Source: Lysobacterales bacterium (GTDB taxonomy: Bacteria > Pseudomonadota > Gammaproteobacteria > Xanthomonadales > Rhodanobacteraceae). From it: a DNA stretch of 49,484 nucleotides. The notes under the pieces are model-generated. The model searched no databases and had not been told where the DNA came from. It saw only the letters and a list, made by a program, of their open reading frames with translations. This document shows positions 18,823 to 39,441 of the stretch, piece by piece. Position 1 is the stretch's first letter, and each line of letters starts with the position of its first letter. The stretch covers positions 1 to 49,484 of the forward strand of contig JAFKMZ010000022.1 of NCBI GenBank assembly GCA_017305055.1, given 5' to 3'. A program made the position numbers and the translations under genes.

Positions 18823-18876
18823 TTGTGGGAGCCCGCTCGTGACCGAAGGGAATCCCTTGTGGGCGGGCGATGCTCT
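18823..18876. repeat. REP family B, long variant
   Basis: TTGTGGGAGCCCGCTCGT, a central AAGGGAATCCCTT palindrome and GGGCGGGCGATGCTCTT. The same long layout recurs at 33495-33545 (inside a coding sequence) and 37117-37169. It directly abuts the truncated phosphatase copy. Confidence 0.75.
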
Positions 18877-19045
18877 TCGACAACCCCACCCAACGCACAT
18901 CCCATCGCCTCAACGCGACATCGACGCCGCCGGCGCCGCCCCTCCGCCAGCGCCGCATCCGTGGATGCGCCATCCACCAGCGCCGCGCGCAACGCGATCA
19001 TCGCGCCCACCCGGTTGCTGCTGGCGCAATGCACCACGGTCAGCC
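18867..19045 (-). pseudogene. Truncated, internally deleted copy of the phosphatase gene at 20014
   Basis: Positions 18867-18919 are identical to 19971-20023, and 18933-19045 (113 bp) are identical to 20113-20225. The 77 bp between these in the intact copy are missing here. The ends of the loss are the direct repeat GCGCCGCCCC (20036-20045 and 20113-20122), so it looks like a slippage deletion. The fragment keeps the phosphatase loop HCASSNRVGA but loses the N-terminal half and shifts frame after ALAEGR. It lies on the other side of the TA pair from the intact gene. Confidence 0.9.
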
Positions 19046-19205
19046 ACCGTATTGCCTTCGCGATGTCGTTTTCCTTGCTGGGATTGGATTACACAACAAG
19101 GGGGACGTTTTCCGATGGCAAGGTCACCGCCACCTGGCATCGTGCCTCCTCGTACCAAGCCGCCACACCCCGCCAACCTGCATCGGCAAAGGGGCACCTT
19201 GCCCT

Positions 19206-19226
19206 TAGTACCAAAAAAAGTACAAT
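19206..19226 (+). promoter_or_regulatory. Candidate promoter/operator of the HigB/HigA-type pair
   Basis: TTAGTAC and GTACAAT form an imperfect inverted repeat around an A-tract (CAAAAAAA). TACAAT would serve as a -10 box but ends at the toxin ATG, so the transcript might be nearly leaderless. Autoregulation by the HTH antitoxin is usual in this family. Confidence 0.4.
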
Positions 19227-19580
19227 ATGGCCACGCGGTTCCTGCCCATCCTTGCGGTTCGCTTTTATGCCAGCGCTCAAGGTCGCGAGCCGGTTCGAGA
19301 GTGGCTGAAATCACTATCGCCCGATGCTCGCAAAGTGATCGGCGAAGACATCAAAACTGTGCAGTACGGCTGGCCACTTGGCATGCCTTTGGTACGCAAG
19401 ATGGAACCTGGACTGTGGGAAGTACGAAGTACGATCGGTGCAGGCATCGCGCGGGTGCTGTTCACCGCAGACGGACCTCGCATGGTCCTGCTGCACGGCT
19501 TCATCAAGAAAACTGACAAGACGCCCAAGGCCGACCTGCAGTTGGCTCTGCGCCGATCAAACGAGGTTCATCATGGCTAA
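19227..19580 (+). CDS. RelE/HigB-type toxin (Gp49-like family)
   Basis: 117-aa toxin of the phage-derived Gp49-like/HigB family, expected to cleave mRNA on the ribosome. Visible family marks are VRFYASAQGREPVREWL, EDIKTVQYGWPLGMPLVRK, LEVRS-type core as LWEVRSTIG, and IARVLFTADGPRMVLLHGF followed by KKTDKTP, which carries the usual C-terminal basic residues. The toxin-first order with the antitoxin overlapping by 8 bp (19573-19580) is typical of higBA-like systems. The module lies between a truncated and an intact copy of a phosphatase gene. The start at ATG 19227 fits the family N-terminus; no good ribosome site is visible. Confidence 0.88.
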   Translation: MATRFLPILAVRFYASAQGREPVREWLKSLSPDARKVIGEDIKTVQYGWPLGMPLVRKMEPGLWEVRSTIGAGIARVLFTADGPRMVLLHGFIKKTDKTPKADLQLALRRSNEVHHG

Positions 19581-19866
19581 GCACAACGTCCATATTGGCA
19601 GCGCCTTGGATGATCTCCTGGCCGAAGACGGCGTGCTGGAAGAAGTATCGGCACGCGCCATCAAGCGCGTCATCGCCTGGCAACTGCGCGAAGCCATGCA
19701 GGCCCAGGGGGTGACCAAGACCGTCATGGCGCAACGGATGCACACCAGCCGATCCATGCTCGATCGCCTGCTCGACGATACCGATACCGGCTTGACCATC
19801 GACACACTGAGCCGCGCAGCACGGGCGCTGGGCTACCGGGTGAAAGTCGAACTGGCGGCGGCATAA
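19573..19866 (+). CDS. HTH antitoxin (XRE/HigA-like) paired with the upstream toxin
   Basis: 97-aa antitoxin and likely autorepressor. The central part (about residues 40-85) is a helix-turn-helix of XRE type: AMQAQGVTKTVMAQRMHTS, then RSMLDRLLDD and LTIDTLSRAARALG. The N-terminal part (residues 1-30, MAKHNVHIGSALDDLLAE) would wrap the toxin. ATG 19573 lies inside the toxin gene end with GAGG 6 bp upstream, so translation is coupled. Nothing looks broken; the pair is probably functional. Confidence 0.88.
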   Translation: MAKHNVHIGSALDDLLAEDGVLEEVSARAIKRVIAWQLREAMQAQGVTKTVMAQRMHTSRSMLDRLLDDTDTGLTIDTLSRAARALGYRVKVELAAA

Positions 19867-19911
19867 CCACTCACCAGCAACGCCAACCCCCTCCCCGTTG
19901 TGTGTGTTGTG

Positions 19912-19980
19912 TTGTGGGAGCCCGCCCCACGGGCGATGCCCTGATGTGAGTTGTGGGAGCCCGCTTGCGGGCGATGCTCT
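19912..19980. repeat. Two tandem REP family B copies
   Basis: 19912-19940 begins TTGTGGGAGCCCGCCCCACG; 19951-19980 begins TTGTGGGAGCCCGCTTGCGG and continues GCGATGCTCT. Both are in the same orientation. The second abuts the 3' flank of the intact phosphatase gene exactly as the REP at 18823 abuts the truncated copy. Confidence 0.8.
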
Positions 19981-20013
19981 TCGACAACCCCACCCAACGC
20001 ACATCCCATCGCC

Positions 20014-20571
20014 TCAACGCGACGACGACGCGGCCGGCGCCGCCCCACCCGCCCCGGCAGACCACGCCGCCAGCCGCTCGCGCACCTGCGGCTCCAGGCT
20101 CTTCAGCCCCCAGCGCCGCCCCTCCGCCAGCGCCGCATCCGTGGATGCGCCATCCACCAGCGCCGCGCGCAACGCGATCATCGCGCCCACCCGGTTGCTG
20201 CTGGCGCAATGCACCACGGTCAGCCCGTCACCGGCGTCGCCCAGCAGCTTGTCGAACGCCAGCACATTGCCCCTGGTCAGGTCCTGCGGCCCACGGATCG
20301 GCAGGTGACGATAGTTGATGCCCACCCCCTGCACCGCCGACGCCTCGTCGAAACCCGGCGTCTCGCTGGCCGCGCGCAGGTTGATGACCTCGCGCACCCC
20401 TGCCGCCTGCAGCGCCGGCAGGTCGTCGGCCTGCAGCGCACCCGCCGCCACGCGGTGCGGCGCGGGGAAGCTGACGCTGGGGAGGTTGGCGAGGGCACGC
20501 TCGGGCGACGGCGCACTGCACGCGGTGGCCAGGGCGGCGATGGCGGTGAGGCAGAGCAACAGGCGGAACAT
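20014..20571 (-). CDS. Small tyrosine-phosphatase-like lipoprotein
   Basis: 185-aa protein of the beta-lactamase-hydrolase-like/dual-specificity phosphatase group. The N-terminus is a lipoprotein signal, LLCLTAIAALATACSAP, with Cys in a lipobox. The active loop is VVHCASSNRVGAM (Cys-X4-Arg), and the upstream VREVINLRAASETPGF matches the usual first strand. It would act at the membrane on phosphorylated protein or small molecules; the substrate is unknown. The ATG at 20571 has GAGGTG about 7 bp upstream and starts right at the signal peptide. A truncated copy of its 3' part lies at 18867 on the far side of a TA pair. The Ala/Ser-rich C-terminus (GGAAPAASSSR) is encoded by the region deleted in that copy. 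Confidence 0.8.
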   Translation of the reverse strand: MFRLLLCLTAIAALATACSAPSPERALANLPSVSFPAPHRVAAGALQADDLPALQAAGVREVINLRAASETPGFDEASAVQGVGINYRHLPIRGPQDLTRGNVLAFDKLLGDAGDGLTVVHCASSNRVGAMIALRAALVDGASTDAALAEGRRWGLKSLEPQVRERLAAWSAGAGGAAPAASSSR

Positions 20572-20592
20572 GGGTTCACCTCGCGGTGCGCG

Positions 20593-20620
20593 GGAAACAG
20601 GTGTCAGGAACGAATGGCAC
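20593..20620. repeat. Half-type repeat GTGTCAGGAACGAATGGCAC
   Basis: The sequence continues TGGCGCC. A related copy, CGTCAGGGACACTTGGCACT followed by GGCTCC, lies at 31404-31431 just after hipA. No inverted partner is visible in either place. They look like single arms of another palindrome family. Confidence 0.4.
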
Positions 20621-20704
20621 TGGCGCCTTTTGCCGATGAGTACGGTATCTTTCCCCTGTCGGCAAACCTGAAACCACGCCCATCCAAGCAAGTTGCCTAC
20701 CGCC

Positions 20705-20998
20705 ATGCAAAGGCCATCCCAACGGATCCAAGCCCATCGTGAAGCCATCAAAGCCATCGTGGCCCGACATCACGGTATGCATCCGCGCCTGTTCGGTTCG
20801 GTAGCGCGCGGACAGGATACGCCGCAAAGTGACGTGGACCTATTGGTGGACACTCGCGCCGGAACCGGGTTGTTCGCACTGGGAGCCATGCAATACGAAT
20901 TGCAGCAACTACTGCAAACCCGGGTCGACGTACTGACCCCGGGCGATCTGCCCGCCGCCTTCCGCGCGCAGGTGCTGGCTGAGGCGCTCCCACTGTGA
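20705..20998 (+). CDS. MntA-like nucleotidyltransferase antitoxin 1
   Basis: 97-aa minimal nucleotidyltransferase. The catalytic signature is LFGSVARGQDTPQSDVDLLVD, that is GSxxRG followed by two Asp in DVD. In MNT/HEPN modules this protein AMPylates the HepT RNase and silences it. The C-terminal half (LQTRVDVLTPGDLPAAF) is normal for the family. The start is taken as ATG 20705; an in-frame ATG at 20693 is possible. Its stop overlaps the GTG of the following hepT (GTGA at 20995-20998), so it is the first gene of a coupled pair. The partner carries an amber stop. Confidence 0.85.
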   Translation: MQRPSQRIQAHREAIKAIVARHHGMHPRLFGSVARGQDTPQSDVDLLVDTRAGTGLFALGAMQYELQQLLQTRVDVLTPGDLPAAFRAQVLAEALPL

Positions 20999-21369
20999 CG
21001 GACCCAATCGAACGCGCCGCCACCTTTCTGGCCCACATGAAAGAGGCGGCCGCATAGGCCTGTGCCTACGTGGAGGGCATGGACAAGCCAGCATTCATGG
21101 ACGACAAGCGAACCCAGCAAGCCGTGGTGATGAACCTCATCATCCTTGGTGAAGCTGCTACAAAGCTTGCAGACAGCGCGCCCGCCTATTGCACGCAGCA
21201 CCCACAAATTCCCTGGAACAGCATGCGCGGCATGCGCAACCGTCTGGCTCACGGCTACTTTGCCATCGATCTTGAGGTGGTATGGGAAACCGTGCAAAAC
21301 GATCTTCCGGCACTTTTGCGCCAATGGCCGAAAGTGCCCAATCCCGCGGGCAATCCCCCTTCACCATGA
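20995..21369 (+). pseudogene. HepT-like HEPN RNase 1 with in-frame amber stop at codon 21
   Basis: From GTG 20995 the frame reads a normal HepT N-terminus (TDPIERAATFLAHMKEAAA), then TAG at 21055-21057, then continues in the same frame as ACAYVEGMDKPAFMDDKR to the end. The HEPN active motif RNRLAHGYF (Arg-X4-His) is intact near the C-terminus. One base change (CAG to TAG, or similar) would explain the stop. Reinitiation at GTG 21070 or ATG 21079 would give a protein lacking the first helix. The antitoxin partner upstream is intact. It is called a pseudogene, though readthrough or restart is possible. Confidence 0.8.
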
Positions 21370-21730
21370 CACACGCCCACGACATCTAACCCCAGCGTCG
21401 CTCCCAGCCATCGTGGTCAAGTGGAGTCGGCGCGGCAATGGATCCGGTCTCAAAAATGGGGGCTTGGCCCTGCCGCACGGAGCTTGACGGACCGTCGTCC
21501 ACCTGCCGCGGCACAACATCGGTTCGCGCCCGCTATCCCGCCAACCGCACCAGTCCTATGTCCGACCCAAAAAACCATCCCTGATATCGCTTCCACATCC
21601 CTTGCGGCACATCGACTTCGACCGGTTGGGGTACGCTAGCGGCTGAAAATGGGGCCAAGGACAGGATGCGGAAGCCACCCGGCCAAAACTGTCCCCGACT
21701 CCGCTTGCGCAGGCACACATCCTGGACGCG
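21370..21730. other. Intergenic region, no gene recognised
   Basis: This 361-bp stretch separates the two nucleotidyltransferase modules. Short frames exist on both strands but none shows a family motif. It holds GACGGACCGTC (21487-21497), a short inverted repeat. Confidence 0.4.
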
Positions 21731-22024
21731 ATGATGCTACTGGAACAACTCCGCCAAAGCAGGGACCAGATCAACGCCGCGTGTCGTCGCTACGGCGCGC
21801 GCCGCATACGCGTATTCGGTTCCGTCGCGCGGGGTGAAGAGCGTCCCGACAGTGATATCGACTTTCTCGTCGATCTTCCGCGTGGTTACGACCTGGTAAC
21901 CCAGCGCATCCCGTTGCAACGACGCCTCACCGAGATCACCGGGCGCCGCCTGGACGTGGTTCCCGAGCACGAGCTGAACCGGCACATCCGCGACGCGGTG
22001 TTGCGGGAGGCCGTGGACCCGTGA
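21731..22024 (+). CDS. MntA-like nucleotidyltransferase antitoxin 2
   Basis: 97-aa minimal nucleotidyltransferase of the same family as the gene at 20705 but clearly diverged. The signature is VFGSVARGEERPDSDIDFLVD, with GSxxRG and DID metal ligands, followed by ITGRRLDVVPEHELNRHI. The N-terminus (LLEQLRQSRDQINAACRRYG) is of usual length. The start may be ATG 21731 or 21734. It overlaps the next small frame by 4 bp (GTGA at 22021-22024), the normal junction to hepT, but that partner is only a remnant. It may now act alone or be decaying. Confidence 0.83.
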   Translation: MMLLEQLRQSRDQINAACRRYGARRIRVFGSVARGEERPDSDIDFLVDLPRGYDLVTQRIPLQRRLTEITGRRLDVVPEHELNRHIRDAVLREAVDP

Positions 22025-34352: not shown

Positions 34353-35555
34353 ATGAACCGTCGTCAATTCCTGCTTGCCGCCGCCAGTGCCGCCGCGGCA
34401 CTGCCGGCGTTGTCCTTCAGCGGACGGCTGTTTGCCGCGCCGGCCAACACTCCGCGTTTCCTGCTGGTGTTCCTGCGCGGCGGCTACGATTGCAACAATG
34501 TGCTGGTGCCGTACGCCAGCGATTTCTATTACGACGCGCGGCCCACCCTGGCGATCGCGCGACCGGACCCGGCAAACGCGTCGAGTGCCATCGCGCTCGA
34601 CGCGGATTGGGGCCTGAACCCGGTGCTGCGCGATTCGCTCTATCCGCTGTGGCAGAAGAGGCAGCTTGCGTTCGTGCCCTTTGCCGGCACCGACGACTTG
34701 TCGCGCAGCCATTTCGAGACGCAGAACCATATCGAGTCGGGCGAGCCCGCCACGCAGCACGCCGGCTTCCGCTCGGGTTTCCTGGCGCGCCTGTCCGGCG
34801 AGCTGACCGGCGTGCCATCGATTGCCTTCACCCGCAACCTGCCACTGAGCTTCCAGGGCGCAGGCAAGGACATCCCGAACATTTCGCTGAAGACCGACCC
34901 GAAGGCGCAGTTCAATGCGCGGCAGGCGGCGATCCTGAGCGGCATGTATCGGGGTACCCCGCTCGAGGCGGCGACGGCCGATGGCCTGGCGCTGCCCTCC
35001 ACCATTTCCGCCGACCTGCGCAACGAGATGCTGAAAGCCAGCGGCGGCGCCCCCAGCGCACGCAGTTTCGCCAGCGAAACCCGGCGCATCGCCACGTTGA
35101 TGCGCGACCAGTACCGGCTCGGCTTCGTCGACGTCGGCGGCTGGGACACCCACGTCAACCAGGGCAGCGTCACCGGCGGTCTGGCGAACAACCTGCGCAA
35201 TCTCGGCGAAGGCCTGGCGGCGTATGCCGAAGAGCTTGGCGAGACCTGGGCCGACACCACCGTGGTCGTGCTCTCGGAGTTTGGCCGCACGTTCCGCGAG
35301 AACGGCGACAAGGGCACCGACCACGGCCACGGCACGGTGCATTGGGTGCTCGGCGGCAACGTGCGCGGCGGGCGCATCGCCGGCGCACAGGTAGCCATCC
35401 AGCCGTCCAGCCTGCTGCAGAACCGCGACTATCCGGTGCTTACCCATTACCGCGATTTTCTGGGCGGCATGTTTGGGCGGCTGTGGGGCCTGTCGCCGGA
35501 TCGCCTGCAGGCGGTATTCCCGCAAGCCCGGCCGCGCGACCTGCAGCTGGTGTGA
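34353..35555 (+). CDS. DUF1501 family protein with Tat-type signal
   Basis: 400-aa exported protein of the alkaline-phosphatase-like DUF1501 family. The N-terminus MNRRQFLLAAASAAAALPAL is a twin-arginine signal. Core motifs are LLVFLRGGYDCNNVLVPY, HFETQNHIESG, VDVGGWDTHVNQG, VVVLSEFGRTFRENG and TDHGHGTVHWVLGG, with His and Asp residues placed for metal binding. It is the usual partner of DUF1800, which precedes it by 28 bp. The ATG at 34353 has GAGG about 8 bp upstream. Its biochemical role is not known. A gene remnant follows convergently 22 bp downstream. Confidence 0.87.
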   Translation: MNRRQFLLAAASAAAALPALSFSGRLFAAPANTPRFLLVFLRGGYDCNNVLVPYASDFYYDARPTLAIARPDPANASSAIALDADWGLNPVLRDSLYPLWQKRQLAFVPFAGTDDLSRSHFETQNHIESGEPATQHAGFRSGFLARLSGELTGVPSIAFTRNLPLSFQGAGKDIPNISLKTDPKAQFNARQAAILSGMYRGTPLEAATADGLALPSTISADLRNEMLKASGGAPSARSFASETRRIATLMRDQYRLGFVDVGGWDTHVNQGSVTGGLANNLRNLGEGLAAYAEELGETWADTTVVVLSEFGRTFRENGDKGTDHGHGTVHWVLGGNVRGGRIAGAQVAIQPSSLLQNRDYPVLTHYRDFLGGMFGRLWGLSPDRLQAVFPQARPRDLQLV

Positions 35556-35577
35556 AGCTGCTTCGACGCCTGGCTTG

Positions 35578-35784
35578 TCACCCGTCCCGGCCCTGGCTGG
35601 CGCCCTGCATGGCGCCCGAGGACAGCACGCGCCGGCCTTGCGCGCGGGGGACTGCATGCGCCAATGCCTGTTCGAGCTGGCCCTTGACCCGGTTGTAGAA
35701 CACCCGTGAATCCGCGTTGGCGTCCAGGTCGATGGCCTGAAACGCGGCGTGGCTGGCTGCCACCTTGATCGTGGTGCCGAGCAC
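35578..35784 (-). pseudogene. Truncated, twice-deleted copy of the NAD(P)-binding protein gene at 36364
   Basis: A 68-codon frame aligns with residues from LGTTIKVA to the C-terminus of the gene at 36364. It lacks two blocks, 24 residues after DLDAN and 61 residues after LEQALA, and the whole N-terminal NAD-binding part. Both losses are in frame and end at short repeats in the intact gene (around GTTGGCG and GCGCCAGCGC). Base differences from the intact gene show it is not a very recent copy. The RelE/RHH pair lies between the two copies. Confidence 0.9.
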
Positions 35785-35789
35785 ACGAC

Positions 35790-35811
35790 AATTGTCCCTG
35801 ACACCATTTCC
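35790..35811. repeat. Half-type repeat at toxin gene 3' end
   Basis: AATTGTCCCTGACACCATTT then CC, 10 bp before the stop of the minus-strand toxin gene. It resembles an arm of the GTGTCAGGGACAATT palindrome type. No partner arm is visible. Confidence 0.45.
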
Positions 35812-35820
35812 AGGGAGCGG

Positions 35821-36105
35821 TCAGTGCCGGTAGACCTCACGGCGGTTGCCAATGCGGACCACAAGAACCCGCAGGATGTCGTCCTGGATATCGCACAACA
35901 CCCGGTAATCACCCACACGGTAACGCCACAAGTCACCTAGCGGCCCAGACAGGGCCTTCCCTTGTTGGCGCGGATCGATGGCAGGTGCTATCCGCTCGCG
36001 GAGAAAAGCAGTGATGCGCTTTGCCGATTGCCGGTCCAGTTTGCCCAGCTGACGCACAGCCGATGCGGTCAGTTCAATCTGCCAAGCCAAGCTTGCGCTC
36101 CACAT
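35821..36105 (-). CDS. RelE/ParE-type toxin
   Basis: 94-aa toxin of the RelE/ParE superfamily. [40 protein letters not shown] and [20 protein letters not shown] follow the typical beta-strand order, ending in the usual RREVYRH. The start overlaps the antitoxin end by 32 bp if ATG 36105 is used; a TTG at 36090 gives a shorter and perhaps more normal N-terminus. It would cleave mRNA or poison gyrase; RelE is favoured by the sequence. It is the second gene of the pair, and the stop lies 10 bp from a half-type repeat. Confidence 0.87.
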
Positions 36106-36301
36106 CGCTCAGGCTGGTGACTGGTTCCTCTCCTTTGCGAACGCGCTCCAAAACATCGGCAGCCAGGTAGTAATCCTCAACGTCGTCCAGACCGCTGCGA
36201 ATGAGCTCGCGCAGATAGTAGGCCTTGGTGCGTCCTGTCCGGGCTGCAAGATCCTCAAGACGTTTCTCGATATCGGGCGCTATGCGAATCGATGTTGCCA
36301 T
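36074..36301 (-). CDS. Ribbon-helix-helix antitoxin (RelB-like)
   Basis: 75-aa antitoxin. The N-terminal ribbon-helix-helix reads [37 protein letters not shown] and [12 protein letters not shown], a dimeric DNA-binding fold. The C-terminal half ([20 protein letters not shown]) binds the toxin. It is first in the operon. The palindrome GTGAAT-N6-ATTCAC upstream (36316-36333) fits its operator. Length and order are normal, so the pair is probably active. Confidence 0.87.
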
Positions 36302-36315
36302 GCGTGCAGACTCTG

Positions 36316-36333
36316 GTGAATGCGTGTATTCAC
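36316..36333. promoter_or_regulatory. Operator palindrome of the RelE/RHH pair
   Basis: GTGAATGCGTGTATTCAC has perfect 6-bp arms, 15 bp before the antitoxin ATG. Ribbon-helix-helix antitoxins bind such sites to repress their own operon. A -10 box is not clear. Confidence 0.6.
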
Positions 36334-36363
36334 TGTATCACAGCGCAAACGGCGCCTTGCTGG

Positions 36364-37041
36364 TCACCCGCCCCGGCTCTGGCTGGCGCCCTGCATGGCG
36401 CCCGAGGACAGCACGCGTCGGCCCTGCGCGCGCGGGACTTCATGCGCCAGCGCGGCCGCCACGTCGACTGCGGCGATGGCGCGCCAGGCGCGCGGAAGCA
36501 GCGGCCGCAGCACGCGATCCAGGCGATCGCCCCAGATTTCGCCGCGGCGCACGGCCTGGCCCAGCGCCGCGCGGTCGCCGCGCAGCAACGACGGCCGGGC
36601 GATGACCAGAGCGTCGAGATCGAGCTGCGCCAGCGCCTGCTCGAGCTGGCCCTTGACGCGGTTGTAGAACACCCGCGAATCCGCGTTGGCGCCCATGGCG
36701 CTGACCAGCCCGATGCGCCTCGCCCCGGCAGCGCGGGCGGCGCGGGCCACGGCCAGGTTGGCGTCCAGGTCGACAGCCTGAAACGCGGCCTGGCTGCCCG
36801 CCACCTTGATCGTGGTGCCGAGCGCCAGGTAGACCTCATCCACCGCCGGCAGCTTGGGCGACGCGGAAAAGTCCACCGGCAAGGCCACCAGTTTGGGGTC
36901 GGCTACTTCCAGCGCCCGCCGCGCCAGGGCGTACACCCTGGCCACGCCCGGGTCGGCGCACAGCCGCTGCACCAGCTGGCGGCCGACCAGGCCGGTGGCT
37001 CCCGCCACCGCCACGCTGCGCAACTGTGCCGTAGCCATCAT
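36364..37041 (-). CDS. NAD(P)-binding Rossmann-fold protein (HTATIP2-like)
   Basis: 225-aa short-chain-type oxidoreductase of the NAD(P)H-binding/epimerase group. The nucleotide motif is VAVAGATGLVGRQLVQRL (GXXGXXG), followed by YLALGTTIKVAGSQAAFQAV, RIGLVSAMGANADSRVFYNR with the Tyr-X3-Lys-like FYNRVKGQLE, and LVIARPSLLRGDR. The substrate is unknown. The start may be ATG 37041 or 37038. A twice-deleted copy of its 3' part sits at 35578 on the far side of the TA pair. Its 3' end starts about 62 bp from the antitoxin gene start, so the TA module abuts its 3' end. Confidence 0.83.
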   Translation of the reverse strand: MMATAQLRSVAVAGATGLVGRQLVQRLCADPGVARVYALARRALEVADPKLVALPVDFSASPKLPAVDEVYLALGTTIKVAGSQAAFQAVDLDANLAVARAARAAGARRIGLVSAMGANADSRVFYNRVKGQLEQALAQLDLDALVIARPSLLRGDRAALGQAVRRGEIWGDRLDRVLRPLLPRAWRAIAAVDVAAALAHEVPRAQGRRVLSSGAMQGASQSRGG

Positions 37042-37116
37042 GGATCACCTCTCCGCACGTGGCATGAGCATGCAGTGTGCAACACGCAGAGGAAATGGTG
37101 CCATGGACAATGACCC

Positions 37117-37483: not shown

Positions 37484-37726
37484 TCACCTGGGGTGTCCCG
37501 ATCGGCGGCCGGGCGGCAGCGCAGCCTGTGCCTTCGGCGGTGCCGCCATGGCAGAGGCAGCGTCGCGGGCCTTGCGTGCGAGCGCCAGGCCCGCCTGGAA
37601 GGCGTCTGCAGCCTGTGCTTCAGCGGAAGCGTCGCCAGCCGCTGCAACCAGGGCACTGAAGTAGACCGAGAACAACCTGGTCAGCACGTCGGCATAGGCG
37701 GACTGGATGATGTCCGTATCGTTCAT
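37484..37726 (-). CDS. Small Ala-rich protein overlapping the S53 peptidase stop
   Basis: 80-aa hypothetical protein. ATG 37724-37726 overlaps the TGA of the S53 gene (ATGA), a layout that implies coupled translation. The N-terminal half MNDTDIIQSAYADVLTRLFS is amphipathic; the rest is Ala-rich (AGDASAEAQAADAFQAGLAL) and would be helical. The C-terminus is basic (PGRRSGHPR). No family is recognised. It may be a partner, inhibitor or chaperone of the peptidase, by position only. Confidence 0.55.
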   Translation of the reverse strand: MNDTDIIQSAYADVLTRLFSVYFSALVAAAGDASAEAQAADAFQAGLALARKARDAASAMAAPPKAQAALPPGRRSGHPR

Positions 37727-39441
37727 GGCCGGCTCCCAGGCGCGCCGGAGGGCTTCGTCGGCTTCGTCGGCTTCGTCGGCTTCGTCGGCTTCGTCGGCTT
37801 CGTCGGCTTCGTCGGCTTCGTCGGCTTCGTCGGCTTCGTCGGCTTCGTCGGTTTTGGCTTTGGCTTCGGCTTCGGTTTTGGCTTCGGTTTTGGCTTCGGC
37901 TTCGGTTTTGGCTTTGGCTTTGGTTTTGGCTTGCCGGCGCCGGACTTGAGGGCGGCCAGCAGGGCCTGGCCGTCTGGACTGCCGAGGCCGGTACAGGCAT
38001 CCCAGCCCGGGCCGGCCTGATAGGCGCCGTTGTTGCCCTGGGTGATGTCGCGCAGGGCTGCCGCGGCGTTTTCGTACAGGGTGGTGTTGGCCAGGCCGAG
38101 CGGCGCGCCCAGTTGCTGGTTCAGGCGCGCGACCAGAGCGGCCCACAAGGGCGCGACGGCGCTGGTGCCGCCAACGACCTCGCTCTTGCCATCGACCAGC
38201 ACCTGGTAGCCGGTGAGCGGATCGGCGTTGCCGGCGACGTCCGGGACGCCGCGGCCGGCGAAGCCATCCGGTGCCGTGGGCACGCCGGCGGCATCCTGCC
38301 AGGACGGCCGCGGGAACGCCTCGCTGACGCCGCCGCCACCCGCCCCTTCGCCGGCGGCGGTCTCGTTCCACACCACCTCGCTGCTGATCCTGCCGCCGCT
38401 GGAAAGCAGCCGGCTGCCGCCGCAGCCGAGCACCGACACACTGGCGGCGGGGTAATCCACGTGGGCGGCCGAGCCGCTTTCGCCATCGCCCGAGCCACTG
38501 TCGCCACTGGCGACACACACGGTGACGCCGAGGGCGGCGGCATCCTGCAGTGCAGACTCCATGGCCGCGCGGGAGGCGGCGCTCCAACTGTCCTCCGGGC
38601 CGCCCCAACTGATCGACATGACCGTGGTGTGCGGCTGGGCGTTGTGCGCGGCCTGGGCGATCGCATCGTAGAAGCCCTGATCGGTATTCGGCGCGAAGTA
38701 CACGGCGAAGTTGGCCGCCGGCGCCAGGGCACCGGCCACCTCCAGGTCGAGCATCACCTCGGCGTCGGCAGTCGACCCTGGCTGGTTGCTGCCGCCATCC
38801 ACCGCCACCGCAGTGATTGCCGGCGTCGGCAGGCCGAGGCCCTTGAAGTAGGTATCCAGGTCGGCCTGCCGATAGCCGCCGCCCAGCTCGATGATGGCGA
38901 TCGCCTGGCCACTGCCGTCGCCCGGCGGGTACGCATACAGCGCGGCAACCTGCAACGGCGTGTACGACACCGCCGGCGCCGCCAGCGCGACGCGGAAATG
39001 CGGGTGCGCCACCGGACGCTGATCCAGGCCGAGCACCGCCAGCAGCGCCGGATCGGGCAGCACCGGGGCGCCCATGCAGCCGACAAACGGCGTGCCGCCC
39101 GGCGACACCTGGTAGCGGCCGAGGCGTACCCCAAAAGCCTGCTGCATGGCGTCGACGCTGCCGCGCCAGTGCAGCGAGCGGCAGGCCATGTCGCAGGCCT
39201 GCTCCTGCATGCCGTGACGCAAACCCAGTGCGCGCAGGCGTTTGACGTCGGCTGGATCGGCGCCGTAGCGCGCGGCAAAGTCGGCGCGGCGCGTCGTCGC
39301 CAGGGGCAAGACCAGAGATCGCCGACACCGCAATACCAGGGTCACATCCAGCGGCAGATCCGGCGCTGCCGCGCCAAGACAGCGCAGCGTGGCGGGCAGG
39401 ATCCGGCGCGCTGCCGAGGCGCTCGATGGTGGCTTGCGCAT
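37723..39441 (-). CDS. Sedolisin (S53) serine-carboxyl peptidase with Lys-Pro repeat tail
   Basis: 572-aa pro-kumamolisin-like peptidase. The propeptide covers about residues 1-150 (RRADFAARYGADPADVKRLR). The catalytic domain has TADAEVMLDLEVAG with the Glu and Asp of the triad, SISWGGPED with the oxyanion Asp, and EVVGGTSAVAPLWAAL with the nucleophile Ser. PGWDACTGLGSPDG holds the calcium-site end. No classical signal peptide is clear. The last about 70 residues are Lys-Pro and Thr-Lys-Pro repeats encoded by 6-bp and 9-bp tandem repeats. ATG 39441 has the strong site GGAGGA 9 bp upstream. It should work outside the cell at acid pH, as relatives do. Its stop overlaps a small gene. Confidence 0.9.
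   Translation of the reverse strand: MRKPPSSASAARRILPATLRCLGAAAPDLPLDVTLVLRCRRSLVLPLATTRRADFAARYGADPADVKRLRALGLRHGMQEQACDMACRSLHWRGSVDAMQQAFGVRLGRYQVSPGGTPFVGCMGAPVLPDPALLAVLGLDQRPVAHPHFRVALAAPAVSYTPLQVAALYAYPPGDGSGQAIAIIELGGGYRQADLDTYFKGLGLPTPAITAVAVDGGSNQPGSTADAEVMLDLEVAGALAPAANFAVYFAPNTDQGFYDAIAQAAHNAQPHTTVMSISWGGPEDSWSAASRAAMESALQDAAALGVTVCVASGDSGSGDGESGSAAHVDYPAASVSVLGCGGSRLLSSGGRISSEVVWNETAAGEGAGGGGVSEAFPRPSWQDAAGVPTAPDGFAGRGVPDVAGNADPLTGYQVLVDGKSEVVGGTSAVAPLWAALVARLNQQLGAPLGLANTTLYENAAAALRDITQGNNGAYQAGPGWDACTGLGSPDGQALLAALKSGAGKPKPKPKPKPKPKPKPKPKPKPKPKPKPTKPTKPTKPTKPTKPTKPTKPTKPTKPTKPTKPSGAPGSRP
37751..37933 (-). repeat. Microsatellite encoding the S53 Lys-Pro tail
   Basis: GGCTTCGTC repeats 11 times without a mismatch (37751-37849), read on the minus strand as Thr-Lys-Pro. 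Next to it GG(C/T)TT(C/T) units of 6 bp run to 37933, read as Lys-Pro. Units are multiples of 3, so copy-number change alters tail length without a frameshift. Confidence 0.95.

Follow-up and report, generated by a model that had tools for sequence, protein, structure and literature searches.

Layout around a type II toxin-antitoxin pair suggests insertion at the 3' end of an NAD(P)-binding gene with long target duplication

We analysed a stretch of 49,484 nucleotides of a Lysobacterales genome (referred to here as the window), in which a type II toxin-antitoxin (TA) pair is located between an intact NAD(P)-binding gene and a shortened copy of the 3' end of the same gene. In our reading, to which we give a probability of about 0.55, the TA entered at the 3' end of this gene by an insertion with long target duplication. 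The same layout was found at other toxins in related bacteria, and its recurrence suggests that the arrival of a TA pair in a chromosome involves copying of the adjacent gene's end. On the minus strand, the locus at 35564-37041 is read in the order NAD(P)-binding gene, RelB-like antitoxin, ParE/RelE toxin and 3'-end copy, followed by a convergent gene ending at 35555, which we take to be DUF1501-like. The features are as follows:

36364..37041, minus strand: intact NAD(P)-binding (SDR-like) gene of 225 codons (NAD_binding_10, 35.9 bits, cut-off 27.2)
36350..36823, minus strand: stretch of the intact gene with 14 bp past its stop, partly duplicated beyond the TA (direct repeats)
36074..36301, minus strand: RelB-like, ribbon-helix-helix antitoxin (RHH_1; NF048017)
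35821..36105, minus strand: ParE/RelE-family toxin (ParE_toxin; TIGR02385 just under cut-off)
35783..36349, strand not assigned: unit of 567 bp between both gene copies (repeat edges, sequence and homology to another TA)
35564..35782, minus strand: remnant, a copy of the gene 3' end with two in-frame deletions (direct repeats and outgroup comparison)

The remnant, 219 bp long, matched the intact gene in three direct blocks of 88-93% identity, and the insert is in this way flanked by long direct copies of its target. The first block pairs 35564-35663 with 36350-36449 (offset 786, 91%), the second 35657-35737 with 36626-36706 (offset 969, 88%, over-extended at one end), and the third 35716-35782 with 36757-36823 (offset 1041, 93%). 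From the steps between these offsets, the remnant lacks 183 bp at one place and 72 bp at another; the losses correspond to 61 and 24 codons and keep the frame. They end at short repeats of the type used by slippage, the 11-bp TGCGCCAGCGC and the 7-bp GTTGGCG. An open reading frame of 68 codons with a GTG start is found at 35578-35784 on the minus strand, and the match of remnant to intact gene extends 14 bp beyond the stop codon. The three blocks and this reading frame bear out the earlier note, which had described a twice-deleted 68-codon copy in direct orientation at offset 786, and the offset steps together with the 11- and 7-bp repeats agree with the in-frame losses of 24 and 61 residues, ending at short repeats, that it reported.

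No further copy of the duplicated stretch was found in the 3.5-Mb genome, where the single other match was 36 bp long. When the window was compared with itself (pairs of at least 30 bp, with the microsatellite at 37.73-38.00 kb excluded), the only direct repeats of at least 60 bp and above 85% identity were the present case and a second one at 18.8-20.2 kb, both around TAs. The microsatellite (37723-38000) is a run of a nine-base repeat within a sedolisin-like protease gene, named by eye, and encodes a Lys-Pro-rich tail. The NAD(P)-binding gene is not conserved within the genus (best match 46% at the amino acid level among the genus genomes searched); the closest relatives listed had 72% amino acid identity (a Burkholderiales MAG) and 73% DNA identity (G195).

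By its profile matches above cut-off, the window pair is a predicted ParE/RelE-family toxin with a RelB-like antitoxin. The toxin scored 57 bits with Pfam ParE_toxin (cut-off 23) and just missed TIGR02385 (RelE_StbE; 27.6 bits, cut-off 27.9), while the antitoxin scored 20.9 bits with RHH_1 (cut-off 20.5) and 103 bits with NF048017, the NCBIfam profile of a RelB-like antitoxin (cut-off 50). Besides the TA genes, the 567-bp unit has 48 bp in front of the antitoxin start and 38 bp past the toxin stop; the two TA reading frames fill it, with no transposase or integrase among its proteins scanned. The profile scan of the unit covered the TA reading frames, which the remaining ones overlap in other frames; nor was a transposase present among the window proteins scanned. 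Homology of the unit to another TA spans 35843-36340 of 35783-36349, and in the oxidase case listed below (L311) homology to a TA of another genus spans 645-1290, where the stretch between the copies is 646-1296. These extents in both cases suggest that what moved was approximately the functional TA with hardly any other sequence, and neither of its two genes is a recombinase.

One sequence motif lies inside the edge of the unit:

35791..35811, plus strand: ATTGTCCCTGACACCATTTCC motif, with an imperfect inverted partner at 37091-37111; also found beside RAYT-like transposase fragments in a relative

The inverted pair brackets the TA together with the gene and matches at 19 of 21 positions, but equally good pairs arose in 5 of 30 Markov shuffles, so it is not significant alone. 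ATTGTCCCTGACACC was not accepted as a TA border and is kept as a lead only, with 11 matches in 390 kb near toxins versus 13 in 1235 kb at a distance of at least 3 kb, partly from one contig with RAYT-like fragments. At L213 (G064:C92, 434-6175), opposed ATTGTCCCTGACACC pairs bracket small gene cassettes that include a Gp49 TA (434/1108), and are adjoined by RAYT-like fragments (RAYT assigned by eye).

The second case of the window has the following features:

18863..20225, strand not assigned: companion case (repeat comparison and profile scan)
18863-19045: companion remnant
19227-19866, plus strand: Gp49/HTH TA
19967-20225: copied 3' end of the BLH-phosphatase-like gene
20014-20757, minus strand: BLH-phosphatase-like gene (BLH_phosphatase, 22.6 bits, under the cut-off of 26.1)

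The repeats of the companion case were confirmed at 95-98% identity. Overall, its copies are 96.2% identical, versus 91.0% in the NAD(P)-binding case, and this fits the suggestion of the earlier note that the latter event is the older one, provided that both pairs diverged at equal rates. Directly to the right of the companion case (20693-22024) we observed an MntA-like antitoxin, a HepT-like toxin and a second MntA-like gene, apparently a TA array, all scoring under the NCBIfam cut-offs.

The frequency of such repeats was examined at toxins of the genus, collected with Pfam ParE_toxin (53 hits) and Gp49 (44 hits) across 45 genomes, with up to 9.5 kb on each side. We kept 96 of the 97 hits (the one dropped was the second half of a split toxin, G064:C21), two of which score under the curated cut-off; 90 were usable, the other six being nearer than 800 bp to an edge. 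Under a strict criterion (direct repeat of at least 100 bp and at least 90% identity, gap of 200-2000 bp), repeats span 6/90 toxins versus 7/6045 control positions at least 4 kb from these toxins, an approximately 58-fold enrichment, which remains about 39-fold (4/88 toxins) without the two window cases; the controls are positions and not the matched operons proposed in the earlier note. Fisher's test gave 1e-8, and 1e-5 without the window cases, on positions that are not independent. When toxins were placed at random in the same regions, the observed count was reached in none of 1000 trials (mean 0.10 per 90), and leaving out the window cases did not change this. The earlier note had asked whether flanking duplicates might be no commoner at TA modules than elsewhere; against position controls in the genus they are commoner.

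For a replicate outside the genus, the strict and a relaxed criterion (60 bp, 85%) were fixed for 60 Gp49 hits before retrieval, whereas a loose one (45 bp, 80%, gap to 2500) was not pre-stated. Of the planned hits 41 were taken in and 38 were usable, three being left out as nearer than 800 bp to an edge. Repeats span 1/38 toxins at the strict, 2/38 at the relaxed and 4/38 at the loose level, versus 0/2222, 0/2222 and 25/2222 positions, respectively. Random placement that included the zone nearer to the toxins reached the observed number in 243/1000 (strict) and 82/1000 (relaxed) trials. The replicate is concordant with the genus, not significant alone and not conclusive. Among its non-spanning repeats, two surround other TA genes (L329 and L318, by eye) and most others are dispersed repeats in the region L312. 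At L329 (1627-2733) a direct repeat of 69 bp and 90% identity flanks a second, HigB-like TA just after the first (by eye), and at L318 (7623-9133) a BrnA-like antitoxin gene, also named by eye, is spanned by a direct repeat of 137 bp and 91% identity.

Partial tandem duplication is a common mutation, and the layout alone cannot order two events. The 3' end might have been duplicated first, the TA landing later in a tolerant spacer between the copies. We consider this quite unlikely, since such pairs are nearly absent from the control territory of 6045 genus and 2222 replicate positions: of the two distinct strict pairs in the genus controls, one is a tandem-repeat array and the other is a repeat that adjoins runs of N at assembly gaps, and in the replicate no such pair lies at least 4 kb away from toxins.

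At the relaxed level, 9 of the 128 usable toxins are spanned, and in seven of these nine the repeat is a copy of a gene 3' end. Two of the seven are the window cases, and the other five are:

L211: EF-G-like gene (EFG domains), remnant of about 79 codons
L311: molybdopterin oxidase, IorB-like by eye, 221 bp
L334: urate oxidase (Urate_ox_N), 60 bp
L210: glycosyltransferase 2, 79 bp, remnant about 20 bp before the following methyltransferase-like gene
L161: RelB-like gene, named by eye, 229 bp

The order intact gene, TA, remnant was found in six of the seven, the remnant being upstream in L161. Duplications differ in length between the sites, from about 60 to 240 bp, and the copies are separated by 567-921 bp in five cases, by 1.3 kb in L161 and by 1.7 kb in L210. 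The layout recurs in two toxin families and beside a variety of host genes. Together with the enrichment in the genus, this supports the earlier proposal that the layout reflects one process acting at TA modules and not common descent.

It could also be that the repeats are incidental, TAs being situated in repeat-rich, plastic regions. Some toxin-spanning repeats are indeed dispersed or integron-like, and in the replicate the zone at 1.5-4 kb from toxins gives 0.45 (strict) and 0.89 (relaxed) per 38, not far under the 1 and 2 seen at the toxins themselves. We regard this explanation as highly improbable in view of the same zone in the genus, which gives 0.08 per 90 versus 6 observed, and of the gene 3' ends that make up most of the toxin-spanning repeats. 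Several repeats were rejected as gene cases. Those at G064:C5:6359 and G031:C16 were judged not to be gene ends, yet they are counted in the statistics. The integrase pair of L329 passes the loosest criterion only, and its integrase-TA block is common to three other genomes, so tandem islands may explain it; an FkbM-like pair in L312 (by eye), which also passes the loosest criterion only, has both copies truncated. The other weak toxin-spanning repeats of the genus (45-79 bp, 80-92%), with the exception of L210, were read as attC-like, dispersed or paralogous and not as gene ends. At L189 (G064:C77, 1491-3523), Gp49 and ParE toxins lie between repeats that are attC-like by eye, in an apparent integron cassette array.

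Two properties of the seven gene cases count against the reading that we favour. A random target duplication should also yield 5' ends of genes, and none was found among the toxin-spanning repeats. Moreover, the duplications end at +14, +47, -5, +7, +1, -7 and +24 bp relative to the gene end, and random breakpoints do not predict this range of -7 to +47 bp from the stop codon. We cannot fully account for this pattern; fast divergence of intergenic sequence may contribute to it.

An ending near the stop codon would be explained if recombination was one-sided, an incoming gene 3' end with its TA pairing with the resident gene while the other end was joined illegitimately, provided that donor and recipient differ downstream of the gene. 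The remnant would then be the displaced resident 3' end, and the order gene, TA, 3' remnant would follow directly. Homology-facilitated illegitimate recombination, as described in the accessible part of PMC3240628, could produce this direct order but needs incoming DNA that carries the gene end; single-crossover integration of a circle is the other variant, and the two together appear unlikely to us. A further indication in favour of a foreign end comes from the EF-G case, in which the remnant has 14/238 differences to its own gene and 16-23 to the eight other relatives compared, and the intact gene has 15-20 differences to those relatives. The distance between the remnant and its own gene is hardly smaller than the distance between this gene and its counterparts in other species, so the duplication is approximately as old as the species split, or it came from a near relative.

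The kind of differences between the copies speaks against a diverged donor. Diverged alleles should differ mostly at synonymous sites, as do the EF-G orthologues (123/169 = 0.73 synonymous in nine genus comparisons, all with the same G019 gene), whereas between remnants and intact copies only 71/165 differences (0.43) are synonymous in nine repeat pairs, namely the seven gene cases with L329 and L312. The share is 46/107 without the integrase and 38/88 also without the FkbM-like pair; single cases range from 2/6 to 5/10, with 5/14 for EF-G. For one neutral and one purified copy, about 0.44 is expected by hand arithmetic from a neutral share of about 0.28, and the observed share fits this (P 0.88). 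The divergence is, as expected, of the kind that copies identical at birth would show if one of them then decayed. One-sided recombination with a near-identical donor would leave similar scars. In the NAD(P)-binding case, comparison with five outgroups assigned 13 of 17 differences to the remnant and two to the intact gene, with two ambiguous; these outgroups are distant (56-72% at the amino acid level), so the polarisation is weak at synonymous sites. Over-extension of one window block by BLAST gives 21/234 differences instead of 17/207, and the EF-G comparison gains a stray 24-bp piece. A still-coding remnant was considered and rejected, as it exceeds the neutral synonymous share only weakly (P 0.04), and such an excess is expected from the intact partner's own changes.

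We also searched for a single-copy empty site. The left, DUF1501-like neighbour is present in 28 of 44 other genus genomes; the 20 downstream stretches (3.7-10.5 kb) carry no gene of the window's right flank and gave no such site. The EF-G locus gave none either: no match to the 0.78 kb that follow the remnant was found at the 29 other loci. Many of the genomes share a block downstream of the EF-G-like gene, at a distance that varies from about 80 to 1300 bp among the rows listed for 30 genus loci, and small insertions seem frequent there. In both G002 and G019 a TA lies downstream of the EF-G-like gene; a remnant is present in G019 only, and the toxin of G002 is truncated. A linked TA that has no remnant counts against insertion with target duplication. 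This pair of loci, together with homology that ends near the stop codon, would be consistent with a TA that was already situated after the gene and resisted replacement: incoming TA-free DNA that replaced the TA would kill the cell, and survivors would keep the TA and gain a second 3' end. We hold this to be very unlikely, and a remnant in G002 may have been deleted along with the truncated TA.

Returning to insertion with long target duplication, we propose that a small type II TA unit would insert where the NAD(P)-binding gene ends, leaving a direct copy of this 3' end on the far side of the unit and the reading frame of the gene complete. Addiction would favour retention of the unit, while neutral substitutions, and deletions through slippage between short repeats, would erode the spare 3' end. 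As no empty site was found, the molecular step is what we infer, and this is the main gap of the account; the same holds for a single event, for the mechanism at the level of strands and for the role of addiction in retention. A broader claim, which we put forward only tentatively and would not expect to hold as readily as that for the window, is that solitary type II TAs have a transposase-free route to gene 3' ends, leaving a long direct 3'-end copy that stops near the stop codon, and that decaying copies can date and count insertions. How chromosomal TA modules spread without a mobile element is an open question, and an insertion scar, if recurrent, would let their arrivals be counted, dated and tested experimentally.

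Genomic islands integrate in gene 3' ends, where the 3' end of the host gene is duplicated and the gene remains intact. The present case differs in that the TA genes take up the 567-bp unit, the duplicated stretches exceed usual attachment sites in length, and the host gene changes from one case to the next. Integron cassettes that carry TAs also lie between direct repeats (attC-like in L189, by eye), but the long direct repeats across the window unit are gene sequence. In the accessible portion of the open-licence literature we found no report of a recurrent 3'-end scar at TA modules. The closest likeness is to restriction-modification genes, for which insertion with long target duplication has been proposed (Nobusato et al. 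2000; Furuta et al. 2010; via the available parts of PMC3874152, PMC3031569 and PMC1643837). The insertions described there have long, variable direct target duplications, of the order of 100 bp, with no linked known mobile element, and in both situations an addiction unit is placed between such duplications. As far as those parts of the papers allow the comparison, what sets the present cases apart is a solitary type II TA as the unit, a gene 3' end as the copied target in all seven gene cases, and a search that yielded no empty allele. The best-supported account is one already proposed for restriction-modification genes, here extended to solitary type II TAs at gene 3' ends, and if it is true, this mechanism reaches the smallest addiction units.
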